33,601 bases of DNA, taken from contig CACLCV010000010.1 in assembly GCA_902605525.1 (NCBI GenBank), forward strand, positions 1 to 33,601, in the 5' to 3' direction. A program made the translations under genes and the position numbers. The DNA is from an uncultured Gammaproteobacteria bacterium (GTDB lineage Bacteria; Pseudomonadota; Gammaproteobacteria; GCA-002705445; GCA-002716945). Under the pieces are notes generated by a model, which was given only the letters and a program-made list of their open reading frames with translations, was not told where the DNA came from and searched no databases. Positions 2,494-23,131 of this stretch are shown here, in pieces (within the stretch, counting starts at the first letter, position 1; each line of letters opens with the position of its first letter).

Positions 2494-2844
2494 ATGGCAA
2501 GAGTCAAAAGAGGGGTAATTGCAGGAGCGAGACATAAAAAGATACTCAAACTCGCTAAAGGGTATAAAGGCGCAAGAAGCCGCGTATACAGAGTTGCAAA
2601 ACAAGCTGTTATCAAAGCCGGGCAATATGCTTACCGTGATAGAAGACAGAAGAAAAGACAGTTTAGATCTCTTTGGATTACTAGAATAAATGCTGCAGCT
2701 AGACTTAATAACTTATCTTACAGTCAATTTATGAATTATCTTCATAAGTCTGAACTTGAAATTGACAGAAAAATGTTAGCTGAAATAGCAGCAAATAATC
2801 CAGAAAAATTTACTAATATCGTTAAGACAGTAATTCCAAATTAA
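2494..2844 (+). CDS. rplT: 50S ribosomal protein L20
   Basis: Large-subunit assembly protein that binds 23S rRNA; 116 residues, full length. Diagnostic stretches are [36 protein letters not shown] and [21 protein letters not shown] good AGGAG ribosome-binding site (about 2482-2486) precedes the ATG. It is part of the infC-rpmI-rplT unit and in other bacteria is its translational repressor. Confidence 0.98.
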
Positions 2845-2858
2845 GACTTCTTTTTGTT

Positions 2859-3842
2859 ATGGATATAAACCATACTGACCTAGAAAAATTACTAAAAGAA
2901 GATCTCGATTCGTGTAACAAAGAGCATGATTTACTTCAAATTAAATCTAAGTATCTTGGGAAAAAAGGACACCTTACTTCATTATTTGCATCACTAAAAA
3001 ATATTGACTCAGATAAACGTAAAACTTTTGGTGCTGAACTTAATAATATTAAAAATACTCTCTCTTCCATGATAGAGATTAAACTTATTAGTTTAAGATC
3101 TTCGAATGAAGTACCAGAAAAAATAGATTTAGATGTACCAGCTAGACATCACAACAATGGATCCCATCACCCGATTTCATTGATTATAAAAAAGATAGAA
3201 AATATTTTTTTAGAGTATGGATTTGATATTCATGATGGACCTGAAATTGAAACTGAACATTACAATTTTGAATCACTAAATATAGCAAAAAATCATCCTG
3301 CCCGTGATATGCATGATACATTTTATTTTGATAGTCAATTGCTTTTAAGGACGCATACATCTTCTGTTCAAATCCATGCAATGGAAACATCTAATGCTCC
3401 ATTCAGGGTGTTGGCTCCAGGAAGAGTGTACCGTTGTGACTCTGACCCTACACACTCTCCAATGTTTCATCAAATAGAGGGACTATGTGTAGATACAGAT
3501 ATAACTTTCAGTAATCTTAAATGGATTTTAAATAATTTTATAAAAGAGTTTTTCAATAGCAAAAGTATTAAAACTAGATTTAGACCATCATATTTTCCAT
3601 TCACAGAACCATCAGCGGAGATGGATATAATGTTTAATGGTAAGTGGTTAGAGGTCTTAGGGTGCGGCATGGTTCATCCAAATGTTCTAAAGAATGTAAA
3701 TATTAATCCAAAAAAATACTCAGGATTTGCATTTGGATTGGGTATCGAGAGATTTGCAATGCTAGCTTATCAAATAAAAGACTTAAGGATTTTTTTTGAA
3801 AACGATATCAATTTCTTGGAACAATTTAAAAATATTAGATAA
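2859..3842 (+). CDS. pheS: Phenylalanyl-tRNA synthetase alpha subunit
   Basis: Catalytic subunit of the alpha2-beta2 enzyme that charges tRNA-Phe. At 327 residues it equals the E. coli length. The N-terminal coiled-coil tRNA-binding arm (about residues 1-85) precedes the class II core. Visible motifs are FLEYGFDIHDGPEIETEHYN (motif 1 region), LLRTHTSSVQ, FRVLAPGRVYRCDSDPTHSP (motif 2) and FAFGLGIERFAMLAYQIKD (motif 3). The gene sits 14 bases after rplT and 2 bases before pheT, so the two subunits are probably translated together. Confidence 0.98.
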   Translation: MDINHTDLEKLLKEDLDSCNKEHDLLQIKSKYLGKKGHLTSLFASLKNIDSDKRKTFGAELNNIKNTLSSMIEIKLISLRSSNEVPEKIDLDVPARHHNNGSHHPISLIIKKIENIFLEYGFDIHDGPEIETEHYNFESLNIAKNHPARDMHDTFYFDSQLLLRTHTSSVQIHAMETSNAPFRVLAPGRVYRCDSDPTHSPMFHQIEGLCVDTDITFSNLKWILNNFIKEFFNSKSIKTRFRPSYFPFTEPSAEMDIMFNGKWLEVLGCGMVHPNVLKNVNINPKKYSGFAFGLGIERFAMLAYQIKDLRIFFENDINFLEQFKNIR

Positions 3843-3844
3843 TT

Positions 3845-5830
3845 ATGAAGATAAGTAAAAATTGGCTTGCTGAATACATTGCTCCACTCAAGAGTAATAA
3901 CGCTCTTGAAAGCGACTTAACAAAGCTTGGCCTTGAAGTTGATACTATAGTTAAAAATAAAAATGATTATATTATTGATATAGAATTTACTCCAAATCGA
4001 GGTGATTGTTTATCTGTTTATGGTACGGCAAGAGATCTTGCAGCATATAATAAAAAAGATATAAAAAAACCAATCAACTCTCCATTTACATCTGTAAAAG
4101 AAAATAAAAAAATAAAGAATATTGATTCATCTATTTCTCCAGAATATAGATATATGGAGCTTAAGAATATAGATGTTAAAGCCAAGACTCCCAAATTTAT
4201 TGTTGATAGACTTAATAAATCTGATATTGCATCCATAAATATTATTGTAGATATTTCTAATTATGTAATGCTAGAGATTGGTCAGCCTACTCATGCATTC
4301 GACTTAGACAAAATACATGGAAAACTCAGTATAGAAAAGATTCAGAAAAAAAACAATTTCATAGGCATAGATAATAAAGAATATATAGTAGAAAAAGGAA
4401 CCGAAGTCATAGCAGATGAGAAAAATATAATTCATGCGCTACCAGGTGTAATTGGAAGCAATATCTCTAAAGTTGATATTGAGACAAAAAATATCCTTTT
4501 TGAGGGCGCATTTTTTCTACCAGATGTAGTCAGAGCATTATCAAGAAAATATAGAATACAAACTGATTCTTCTTACAGATTTGAAAGAGGTGTCGATTAT
4601 AACTTAGCCGATTTCGCTCTTTCAAGAGTGCATTATTTATTATCACAAGTTACTGATATAGCTAAATGTAAAATTATTAAGATAAGTCATAAACATCAAC
4701 TAACAAAAATGAAATCATTTGACTTTGATGCTAAGCTTTTTAAAAGAATATTGGGAATTGACATCGGTGTCAAAAAGATTAAATCTATACTCATTGATTT
4801 AGGTATATCTTTCAAAGCTAAAAAAGTTATCATCCCGAGTTATAGATTTGATATAACAAATAATTATGATTTAGTAGAAGAAGTCAGTAGAATCTATGGC
4901 TTTGACAATATACCCGAAGTTCCGTTAGATGCTCATTACAGTAAGCCATGCAACAAGTTAAACATAAATGAAAAGCTCGTGACGCTTGGTTATAAAGAAG
5001 TTATTAATTTTACCTTCATATCTCGTAATTACATGAAAAATACTAGAGAGTTAAAACTTGAAAATCCAATATCAAAGGAGAAAGCTGTTATGAGAGAATC
5101 TTTGATACCAGGATTATTATCAAATATTGCATATAACGCCAATAGAAAACATAAAAGCATTAACATCTTTGAAAGAGGAAAGACATACCATAGGGATAAA
5201 TCTAAAATTATAGAATCAAACATAATATCAGCAGTAATATATGGCAACAAAGCATCGACAGACTTAGTGTCTAATAATTATAAATATGGAATTGGCGATT
5301 TAAAATCAGATATATTGTCCATTCTCCCGAATGTTACTTTTATGGCATCTGATGTCTCAACATATTTTGATAATGACAACTCTCTAACTTTGCTTTTGTG
5401 CAACAAAATTATTGGACAATGCGGGCTTGTTTCTCATAACATAATTAAGGATTTTGATATCAGAGGTAATATTTTTGGATTTGAGATGTTGGAAGATGAT
5501 CTGAATCATGAGGACAATGTAATATTCGCTGAAATTTCTCAGTTCCCAGCCGTATACAAAGATATTACATTAATGACAAATAATGATAATAATATGTTAA
5601 AGATCATTGATGAAATCAGAAAAGATAGCTATAAATATATGAAAAATATAAGAATAAAAGATATATTTATTAATAAAGATAATTTACAATCAAATAATAG
5701 AAGCGTTACTTTAGAAATATGTCTGCAATCTAGTAGTAAAACTCTGACAGATAAAGATATCAGTGTTGATATCAATAAGGTAGTAGAAGATTTGAAAAAT
5801 ATACATAAAATACGCTTAAAAGAAGCTTAA
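3845..5830 (+). CDS. pheT: Phenylalanyl-tRNA synthetase beta subunit, lacking the EMAP-like domain
   Basis: Beta subunit of PheRS, responsible for tRNA recognition and tyrosine editing. It is 661 residues long against about 795 in E. coli. The N-terminus [15 protein letters not shown] continues to LGLEVD as usual, then passes almost directly to [20 protein letters not shown]. The roughly 110-residue OB-fold (EMAP II/Arc1p-like) tRNA-binding insert that normally separates these two stretches is absent. The B3/B4 editing region ([15 protein letters not shown]), the B5 and core-like domains, and the C-terminal ferredoxin-fold anticodon-binding domain ([13 protein letters not shown] onward) remain. 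The frame is intact and fused cleanly, so this looks like an evolved domain loss, not decay. It is followed by ihfA after 2 bases. Confidence 0.97.
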
Positions 5831-12715: not shown

Positions 12716-13363
12716 ATGAATAAATCGAGCATAGATAATATTTTTATCTACTGGGTTTATTTTATATCTCTTATTTTTATAGTCTCTTATGCTTTAGAAT
12801 CTCTAGGATTTTTATCTAGTATATTTCAGGAAGATATTAGCTATTTATCATCCCTGATTACTTTTATTCTTATCTTTTACTTATTTCAATGTGGATATTA
12901 TTTATATAAGCTCAGAGATGCAGTATTTTTCATTGAAACAAAAACTCATTATGATGACAGCAATCCTTTTATTATCATCTTGAGCGAATTTCAAATCGCA
13001 AACGATATTTTAAAAGATAAGCCTAAAGCATCACTATATGAAGAGTTTAAACTCAAACTTTATGAATTTGTTGATAATGGTTTTTTTGTTTCTGATCTCT
13101 TATTAAAACTAGGAATTATTGGAACAGTAATAGGCTTTATAATTATGTTAAGCTCTCTATCTGCTATAGATGAAATGAATTTATCTAAAATGAACAATTT
13201 ATTGCTAAGTATGAGCGCAGGAATGAAAGTTGCTCTATACACAACTCTAACTGGATTAATTGGGTCAATACTTTTATCAATTCAGTATAACTTTTTTGAA
13301 AGCAAAATTAATATATTTATTAATCAAGTTATTAATATAGATAATAATGAGAAGAAAAAATAG
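12716..13363 (+). CDS. MotA/TolQ/ExbB-family proton-channel-like membrane protein
   Basis: Predicted inner-membrane channel subunit of 215 residues. Four membrane segments can be seen: about residues 9-30, 42-64, 128-150 and 169-190, with a roughly 60-residue charged cytoplasmic stretch between the second and third. The last two carry the family signature: LLLKLGIIGTVIGFIIMLSS and GMKVALYTTLTGLIGSILLS, matching the LGxxGTVxG and TTxxGL motifs of ion-conducting MotA/ExbB/TolQ subunits. The four-segment layout is closer to MotA than to three-segment ExbB. It abuts fumC and overlaps the ExbD-like gene by 17 bases. It is not tolQ, exbB or motA by context, since no tol, tonB or flagellar gene is near. 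Confidence 0.85.
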   Translation: MNKSSIDNIFIYWVYFISLIFIVSYALESLGFLSSIFQEDISYLSSLITFILIFYLFQCGYYLYKLRDAVFFIETKTHYDDSNPFIIILSEFQIANDILKDKPKASLYEEFKLKLYEFVDNGFFVSDLLLKLGIIGTVIGFIIMLSSLSAIDEMNLSKMNNLLLSMSAGMKVALYTTLTGLIGSILLSIQYNFFESKINIFINQVINIDNNEKKK

Positions 13364-13952
13364 AATTAGAACAGAACCTTTTACGGATTTATTATTTAAT
13401 ACACTTCTAGGTTTCACATTTCTATTCTTTATAACAGTTCTTTTTATTAATCCTATTTCAAAAATAGGTAATGTTAATATGAAGGCAGAATATATTGTAA
13501 CTGTTGATTGGAAAGACAGCTTACCAGATGACGTTGATATATGGGTACAAGACCCAAATGGAGAGACAGTTTCTTACCTAAAAAAAGATGCAGGCTGGCT
13601 ACATCTTGATCGAGACGACCAAGGTATAGTGAATGATGTAGTAACAATTGACGGTGAGGATATTATATATCCTATTAATAGAGAGGTTGTAACTCTGAGG
13701 GGTATTATTCCAGGTGAATATATTTTAAATCTATATTTATATGAACATAAAAGTGATCATCCAATCGATGTAAAAGTGATAATTGAAAAAGTAAATCCAA
13801 CTTTGAAATTAGTCTATGCAAATAATATTACATTAGAAAAAAAAGATTCTGAAGTTACAGTAACTAGATTCTTTTTGGATGCGAAAGGAGAGTATTCATC
13901 TGGTGATAACCAAAAGAAAATATTAACTCCATACAACTTAAAAGGATTTTAA
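13347..13952 (+). CDS. ExbD/MotB-like protein with extracytoplasmic beta domain
   Basis: Predicted partner of the preceding channel; 201 residues. A short basic N-terminus (MRRKNRIRTEPFTDLLFN) leads into one membrane helix at about residues 13-33 whose start holds an aspartate (FTDLLFNTLLGFTFLFFITV), the position of the proton-carrying Asp in ExbD/TolR/MotB. The rest is extracytoplasmic and beta-rich, with VDWKDSLPDDVDIWVQDPNG, AGWLHLDRDDQGIVND and VVTLRGIIPGEYILNLYLY. It lacks an OmpA-type peptidoglycan-binding domain and does not look like the ExbD/TolR periplasmic domain. The family looks conserved but, as far as I know, uncharacterised. Confidence 0.75.
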   Translation: MRRKNRIRTEPFTDLLFNTLLGFTFLFFITVLFINPISKIGNVNMKAEYIVTVDWKDSLPDDVDIWVQDPNGETVSYLKKDAGWLHLDRDDQGIVNDVVTIDGEDIIYPINREVVTLRGIIPGEYILNLYLYEHKSDHPIDVKVIIEKVNPTLKLVYANNITLEKKDSEVTVTRFFLDAKGEYSSGDNQKKILTPYNLKGF

Positions 13953-13954
13953 AA

Positions 13955-14383
13955 ATGATATTATATCTTTATTTAATAGTTCTTCTAATAATATATATCA
14001 TTCTTATTAACCACTTTATCAAAGGCAAGAAATATAAACATAAGATATTAATAGTTTTAAGTATTTCAATATTATTTTCTTTTTTTTATGAAAGTATAAG
14101 AAAGAATGAAGGTTATGCTGTTACAGAGAATCTACCCAAAAGTTTTTATGTACTAAATAGTTATGTATATGGAGACAACATCTTAATTTTAATCAAAGAA
14201 AACAATAATCAACCAAGATTATATAAATTAAAAAAATCACTTAAACTAAATAAATTTCTAAAAAAATACAAAGGATTAAAAAATAATGGTCAAGACGTAA
14301 TGGTAAAAAAGAATAATTCAAAGAGTGAAGACTCATTAGGCATGTATATTGAAAGTGTTCAAAAGAAGTTGCCCCTCAAGTAA
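13955..14383 (+). CDS. Small two-helix membrane protein, third gene of the channel cluster
   Basis: Unrecognised 142-residue protein. Two hydrophobic segments at about 3-22 and 29-47 are joined by a short basic loop (KGKKYKHK); the second is followed by ESIRKNEGYAVTENLPKSFYV and a soluble C-terminal part of about 90 residues rich in Lys and Asn. It starts 2 bases after the ExbD-like gene, so it belongs to the same unit. By position it may be an accessory or anchoring subunit of the putative channel complex; this is inference only. Confidence 0.65.
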   Translation: MILYLYLIVLLIIYIILINHFIKGKKYKHKILIVLSISILFSFFYESIRKNEGYAVTENLPKSFYVLNSYVYGDNILILIKENNNQPRLYKLKKSLKLNKFLKKYKGLKNNGQDVMVKKNNSKSEDSLGMYIESVQKKLPLK

Positions 14384-22281: not shown

Positions 22282-22728
22282 ATGAAACTATCAGCAAAAG
22301 GAAGATATGCTATTAAAGCATTGGTAAATATTGCAACAAGTGACTCTAAGTCACCTAAAACGCTATTAGAAATATCCAAGTATCAAGGAATTTCCTTGTC
22401 ATACTTAGAACAGTTGTTTTCTTTACTCAGAAAGCATGATCTAGTCAGTGGCGTGCGCGGACCAGGTGGAGGTTACAGACTCAAAGATAGTCCAGATAAC
22501 ATCACAATAGCAAAAATCATTAAGGCTATTAATCCAGAGGGAATTAGTCAGGTCGATAATGATAAAACAGACGATGCAGTGTGGGATAAGTTTAGTAAAA
22601 AACTTACTAATTATCTTGATACTGTTACGCTTGGCAGCTTGATTAATGAGACTAAAACTACTAAAAATGATATTGATTTAGAGGAGTTAACAAACTACTA
22701 TCAGCAAGATCAAGATTTAACTGATTAA
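22282..22728 (+). CDS. iscR: Rrf2-family regulator, IscR-like, with no cysteines
   Basis: Transcription regulator expected to control Fe-S assembly genes; 148 residues. The N-terminal winged helix matches IscR closely: MKLSAKGRYAIKALVNIA, ISLSYLEQLFSLLRKHDLV, GVRGPGGGYRLKDSPDNITI. In E. coli IscR the loop with three cluster-binding cysteines then follows (C-x5-C-x5-C before the ALWRDLSDRL helix). Here this loop is shortened to GISQVDNDKTDDAVWDKF and there is no cysteine anywhere in the protein. It therefore cannot bind [2Fe-2S] in the known way and may act permanently as the apo form. It lies 26 bases before iscU, supporting the IscR assignment. Confidence 0.88.
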   Translation: MKLSAKGRYAIKALVNIATSDSKSPKTLLEISKYQGISLSYLEQLFSLLRKHDLVSGVRGPGGGYRLKDSPDNITIAKIIKAINPEGISQVDNDKTDDAVWDKFSKKLTNYLDTVTLGSLINETKTTKNDIDLEELTNYYQQDQDLTD

Positions 22729-22753
22729 TTTAATCTTAGAATAGGGAGATAAG

Positions 22754-23131
22754 ATGGCATACAGTGATAAAGTTTTAGATCATTATGAGAATCCTAGAAA
22801 TGTAGGTACTTTTGATGGTGAAAATAATGTAGGAACTGGCATGGTTGGTGCTCCGGCATGTGGTGATGTTATGAAACTACAAATAAAAGTCAGTGATGAT
22901 GGCATTATTGAAGATGCTAAATTTAAGACTTATGGTTGTGGTTCTGCTATAGCATCAAGCTCGCTACTAACAGAGTGGGTGAAAGGTAAATCATTAACTG
23001 AAGCTTCACTAATTAAGAATACTGACATTGCAGAAGAACTTGCTCTGCCACCTGTAAAGATACACTGTTCTGTTTTGGCTGAAGACGCTATAAGTGCAGC
23101 TATCGAGGACTACAAGAGTAAGAAAAAATAA
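22754..23131 (+). CDS. iscU: Fe-S cluster scaffold IscU
   Basis: Scaffold on which [2Fe-2S] clusters are built and then passed to target proteins. 125 residues, family length. The three ligand cysteines are present at about 36 (GAPACGDVM), 62 (YGCGSAIASSS) and 105 (KIHCSVLAEDA), with the conserved Asp after the first. The LPPVK motif (about 98-102) recognised by the chaperone HscA is kept. Unusually, iscS is missing between iscR and iscU, and iscA, hscBA and fdx do not follow. Sulfur must come from a desulfurase encoded elsewhere. Confidence 0.97.
   Translation: MAYSDKVLDHYENPRNVGTFDGENNVGTGMVGAPACGDVMKLQIKVSDDGIIEDAKFKTYGCGSAIASSSLLTEWVKGKSLTEASLIKNTDIAEELALPPVKIHCSVLAEDAISAAIEDYKSKKK

Follow-up and report, generated by a model that had tools for sequence, protein, structure and literature searches.

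The three adjacent genes at positions 12716-14383 of the window, the whole stretch of 33,601 nucleotides analysed, probably encode an ion-driven ring-and-axle machine of the MotA/ExbB/TolQ kind. It would consist of the ring subunit P1, the axle-type subunit P2 and the third subunit P3, with a putative target in the envelope. P1 belonged to the already known MotA/TolQ/ExbB superfamily, and the surprising part is that the module is also carried by phages.

Gene organisation and subunits

The ORF check placed P1 at 12716-13363, P2 at 13347-13952 and P3 at 13955-14383, all on the forward strand, with lengths of 215, 201 and 142 amino acids, respectively. P1 started with the base directly after the fumC stop codon. 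P1 and P2 overlapped by 17 bases and P3 started after a gap of 2 bases, so that the three overlapping or 2-base-spaced genes of the initial annotation were recovered. Reading of the window ORFs also agreed with it in that no tonB, tol, flagellar or Zorya gene was found among them. At 22282-23131 of the window, the ORF reading showed an iscR-like gene with an iscU-like gene as the very next one; iscS was absent from the place between the two.

P1 matched MotA_ExbB (PF01618) with 41.3 bits at a gathering cut-off of 22.9, and four membrane segments were predicted by reading of the sequence. The third segment, residues 122-148 (13079-13159, forward strand), contained LGIIGTVIGF, in which T137 (13124-13126) aligned with Thr148 of ExbB. 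The fourth, residues 166-190 (13211-13285, forward strand), contained T177 (13244-13246), aligned with ExbB Thr181. Residues G133, G136, G140, A173, T176 and T177 were invariant among 125 distinct homologues. Position 137 of bacterial P1 was Thr in 122/125 and Lys in three, the latter from three related gammaproteobacteria (L130-L132) in which Asp14 of P2 was kept; position 177 was Thr in all 125. In phage P1, T177 was present in 136/142 and Asn occupied the T137 position in 35/142.

The AlphaFold2 model of P2 (pLDDT 80.8) comprised one membrane helix at residues 11-34 (13377-13448, forward strand) followed by an all-beta, predicted extracytoplasmic domain at residues 46-187 (13482-13907, forward strand). 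The helix bears PFTDLLFNTLLGF with the motif PFTDLL, which aligned with PFIDVML of the ExbD helix and placed Asp14 (codon 13386-13388) at the position of ExbD Asp25. The motifs DDVDIWVQDPNG and GWLHLDRDDQG were located within the outer domain, where D62, D64, R89, D90, D91, G93, E113 and R118 were invariant. For P2, Pfam, NCBIfam and PADLOC gave no family over its cut-off, and PHROGs gave no convincing match. In Pfam, neither ExbD/TolR (PF02472) nor a VWA domain was matched, and no OmpA-type peptidoglycan-binding domain was found in P2. The P2 profile had no match among PDB sequences (best E 0.4) and Foldseek gave no significant fold match for the model in the PDB. By profile and Foldseek searches, P2 was therefore no known ExbD or TolR. 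Weak matches to DUF2135 occurred in 6/18 members of the P2 family (best E 0.0039), the window P2 itself being without a match; because they were weak, the domain is called only DUF2135-like. A stretch at about 421-559 of phrog_1735, an unnamed phage protein family in PHROG with 673 positions, resembled the outer domain. The initial annotation had described P1 as a four-segment protein with the MotA-ExbB-TolQ signature and P2 as an ExbD/MotB-like helix with the expected aspartate and a beta-rich domain unlike ExbD, TolR or OmpA; the profile score, the alignment of PFTD with PFID and the model are in line with these descriptions.

P3 was modelled with a pLDDT of 84.4 as a membrane hairpin at residues 2-51 (13958-14107, forward strand; helices 2-22 and 28-51) and a soluble domain at residues 52-142 (14108-14380, forward strand). 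DSSP assigned the latter the order strand-strand-strand-helix-strand-strand, which is OB-like. The hairpin loop (KGKKYKHK) is basic, which by the positive-inside rule suggests that the soluble domain faces the periplasm. P3 reached the cut-off of no family in Pfam, NCBIfam and PADLOC, and no convincing match came from PHROGs. Several OB folds were among the weak Foldseek matches of the model in the PDB, none of them significant. Matches to TIGR04370 and CPBP were far under cut-off, probably reflecting the membrane helices, and were rejected. P3 had been noted as an unknown two-helix protein; it indeed belonged to no curated family in these searches, but the description lacked the predicted soluble domain of strands and one helix after the hairpin.

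Proposed contact between axle and ring

Direct-coupling analysis was performed with 267 distinct trios, a small set with an effective number of 168. Among the top 50 P1-P2 couplings, 13 joined the third or fourth membrane segment (TM3/TM4) of P1 to the P2 helix, with 1.3 expected. A run with P1 and P2 only placed 10/50 couplings in this box, compared with 0 to 3 in 12 within-group shuffles; the shuffles are the better control because the box was picked after the top pairs had first been inspected. Coupled P1-P2 pairs in the box included 141-21, 170-22, 138-15 and 137-17, the last reflecting co-variation of T137 with the P2 helix. Single pairs are untrustworthy because some other high-ranking pairs were structurally senseless. 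The couplings were thus concentrated at the place expected for an axle helix within a ring, and this sequence co-variation supports the putative axle-ring contact.

Asp14 of P2 was present in 112/127 bacterial and 142/146 phage homologues. The 15 bacterial exceptions comprised one gap and 14 proteins with Val or Ala, and all 14 carried Lys18, one helical turn further on. Loss of Asp14 together with the change from Asn18 to Lys was found in two lineages (L133-L143; L045, L047 and L158). These groups, which were defined from the residue pattern and not from the tree, were apart on a P2 tree built without the columns of positions 14 and 18, and enforced monophyly was rejected (AU test, p 0.001). 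A single origin of the swap was thus ruled out; the two changes occurred together on at least two independent occasions. Lineages in which Asp14 was lost and a lysine gained are natural variants with which ion movement through such channels could be tested.

Distribution and gene neighbourhoods in bacteria

The first 48 loci with P2 contained P1 in 47 cases and an adjoining P3 in all 48, making 47/48 full trios. Together with a P2 identity of 41-56% outside the window's family, this count excluded a trio by chance. The GTDB collection supplied 80 loci, and the titles of almost all of these were Alpha- or Gammaproteobacteria. Clustering gave a single cluster for each of P1, P2 and P3, and each cluster was represented in 75 of the loci. 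One of these loci was titled Flavobacteriaceae, had a P2 identity of 95% and is probably a mislabelled bin. All three genes were on the same strand in 99/102 loci of at least 6 kb, some of which shared a genome. The three families therefore co-occurred across genomes, as their annotation as one system had implied, and did so in several unrelated neighbourhoods.

P2 was detected in 40/369 genomes drawn evenly from the window's class and in 18/399 drawn from the phylum, the latter mostly from one genus. Plasmid searches yielded only distant copies from Azospirillum. Within the window's family, 21/25 genomes held P2, at a single location wherever the flanks were readable. The four genomes without the trio also lacked orthologues of fumC and acnA, which is why their lack of the trio was not taken as a sign of dispensability. 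The order fumC-trio-acnA was specific to the window's own family. A link to the TCA cycle was rejected because the neighbours of the trio differ elsewhere, and the placement between fumC and acnA says nothing about function.

Other neighbourhoods recurred. The trio was accompanied by a gene for a DUF3108-like lipoprotein in 26 loci, and in 13 loci it was located between genes for an L,D-transpeptidase and a DUF302 protein on one side and a VWA-FHA protein on the other. A metallophosphoesterase and a Ser/Thr kinase were encoded next to the trio in six loci, mostly from one genus of another class with large genomes; this neighbourhood was seen at L148, L156, L167, L168 and L171-L173. These partner genes indicate a connection with the envelope and, for two of the lineages, with Ser/Thr phosphorylation. 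In view of the FHA and kinase/phosphatase partners, some bacteria may control the module through phosphorylation. A divergent trio in one bacterial genome (L155, G566) adjoined a gene for a trypsin-like lipoprotein and is possibly a prophage copy.

Trio genes in phages

A tblastn search with the window P2 detected 27 records of Rhizobium and Sinorhizobium phages at E <=0.01, the best at 3e-26. Eight of the records were read out, and in these P2 was flanked by ORFs for a short P1 and for P3. In Pootjesviridae (about 155 kb), the genes around the trio included those for gyrase, a late sigma factor and recombination. The trio was also present in phages of 59-68 kb including the temperate phage 16-3, where it comprised p038, p040 and p042 and was located downstream of immX. 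In L191, a phage of temperate type (trio at 2740-5175), it started just past the annotated attL site; further phage trios spanned 3438-4926 in L185 and 4133-5994 in L187. In the lytic phage RHph_Y68 (Y68), the trio was inside the core replication gene block, and its retention there in lytic Rhizobium phages means that it probably does real work. In phage I1_18, a VWA gene lies 2 kb downstream; by our own reading, it looked unrelated to the bacterial VWA-FHA gene.

Three queries of IMG/VR yielded 5, 196 and 79 relatives, of which at most 80 per query were kept, and many of the loci (L194-L357) carried the trio. The viral status of these contigs rests on IMG/VR itself, and the isolate phages are independent of it. 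Among the viral loci with P2, 160/172 examined held the full trio, and P1 occurred once in each of 164. The MotA_ExbB match was 34.8 bits for P1 of viral contig L214 and 20.5 bits, just under cut-off, for that of phage L185. Profile E-values for the viral trio are not independent because iterative training of the profiles drew on the same viral sequences. A gene for a secreted trypsin-like protease abutted P1 in many temperate-type phages (L187, L190-L192 and L280-L303).

The P2 tree, an unrooted tree of one short protein from a quick search, contained two deep groups. Both were mainly viral, and the 15 bacterial representatives were one clade within the first. On this tree, the bacterial chromosomal genes are a single clade amid greater phage diversity. 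In phages, the module could serve to modify the envelope, to exclude rivals or to assist lysis. We consider it possible, if rather doubtful, that the trio is a three-protein ion-driven motor family chiefly of phages that acts on the host envelope, and that proteobacteria domesticated one lineage as a housekeeping envelope machine able to rewire its ion path from aspartate to lysine. The isolated phages make the work of the module in phages testable.

Proposed mechanism and alternative explanations

In the proposed machine, P1 would form a ring with two P2 helices as the axle within it, putatively in a 5:2 stoichiometry. The flow of protons or another ion between the aspartate of P2 and the threonines of the ring would move one part against the other. 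The DUF2135-like outer beta domain of P2, being neither a peptidoglycan-binding nor a TolR domain, would transmit the movement to an envelope partner. P3 would be the third subunit, an obligate one, and its outer domain would serve to couple or gate the motor. The bacterial module may use exchangeable partners, namely the L,D-transpeptidase, the DUF302 protein, the VWA-FHA protein, the DUF3108-like lipoprotein and the Ser/Thr kinase and phosphatase, and phages would carry it as a self-contained set. The initial annotation had proposed a proton-driven machine doing work on an envelope target. An undescribed trio of the MotA/ExbB type with axle-ring contact indicated by co-variation is in keeping with this, but some lineages may not be 'proton-driven', since 14/127 bacterial P2 replace Asp14.

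A superinfection-exclusion or anti-phage device akin in principle to Zorya, with which phages exclude competitors and of which bacteria keep a domesticated copy, is unlikely. It would suit the distribution among phages, the positions just past attL in L191 and downstream of immX in 16-3, and the weak similarity of P1 to ZorA. However, the ZorA cut-offs (100 to 700 bits) were missed by far, no equivalent of ZorC, ZorD or ZorE was seen and P2 carried no OmpA-type domain. The location in the replication block of Y68 also argues against it. In the window's family, the single place of the chromosomal copy in 21 genomes, wherever its flanks were readable, and its absence together with fumC and acnA in four suggest steady housekeeping, unlike typical defence genes.

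It is quite improbable that the P1-P2 channel acts as an envelope sensor or as a regulated leak for ions, opening on command, for example for phage lysis, with no mechanical work. The two independent replacements of the axle aspartate by a lysine one turn away would be compatible with a leak. So would the trypsin-like protease gene near the trio in 36 viral loci, within 300 bases of P1 in 32 of them, and, in 16 loci, endolysin-like genes no more than 3 kb away. Arguments against it are that phages strictly keep Asp14, that T177 is kept almost throughout, and that the module has a dedicated outer domain whose invariant acidic residues suggest partner contact.

A divergent Ton or Tol energiser for an ordinary receptor or division role is very improbable despite the shared superfamily of the ring subunit, since P2 had no ExbD match, none of the genes recurring beside the trio was recognised as a TonB-, TolA-, TolB- or Pal-like partner, and the genome already held an ordinary ExbB and two ExbD genes (PF02472) beside TonB-dependent-receptor-like ORFs on the separate contig C13 (L147, G000:C13:12000-20392).

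Comparison with known systems

Compared with the known systems, the proposed ring-and-axle machine shared the Pfam family of P1, the ring threonines, the aspartate helix of P2 (PF[T/I]D) and the in-out topology with ExbBD-TonB and TolQR-TolA. It differed from them in the outer domain of P2, which is unlike ExbD and TolR, in the lack of TonB or TolA and in the additional P3. ExbB and TolQ have three membrane segments, whereas four were predicted for P1. A four-segment ring subunit and the axle aspartate are shared with the MotAB stator, and P1 had a PDB match to a MotA (8gqy, E 0.027), but P2 lacks the OmpA-type peptidoglycan domain and flagellar genes were not found near the trio. Membership in the flagellar and Ton/Tol systems was accordingly rejected. 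ZorA of the Zorya ZorAB pair was the closest, but weak, curated relative of P1, which also matched 8vvn in the PDB (E 0.066), an entry that we take to be ZorA. P1 reached 21.5 bits against a 100-bit ZorA cut-off and lacks the long ZorA tail, P2 is unlike ZorB, and no zorC, zorD or zorE was recognised among the window ORFs, so Zorya membership was rejected.

GldLM of type IX secretion and gliding has been reviewed as a 5:2 motor with a special outer shaft (PMC9389320); it had no sequence relation to the trio in family searches, and the GldM shaft is long and multi-domain. Diverse non-flagellar relatives with unknown domains have been described (PMC12505986), as have tolQ-like genes with vWA force transducers, of which more systems are expected to be found (PMC12204202). 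The latter motors resemble the trio in having a non-canonical outer domain on an ExbD-like helix and an adjacent tolQ-like gene, and some trio loci contain a VWA gene. Identity with them was rejected as the vWA-type family is a different one: the outer domain of P2 is beta-rich and DUF2135-like, P3 is new and the VWA gene at trio loci is separate and carries FHA. Limited open-access literature searches retrieved no description of the trio, nor of a complete MotA/ExbB-type module in phages. The likeness of P2 to the DUF2135/YfaP domain was weak, as noted above. To our knowledge, YfaP has no motor helix. Only a handful of ion-driven machines of the 5:2 type are known, and they differ from one another in outer part and in job. 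To these, the trio would add a widespread family whose two outer domains are both new.
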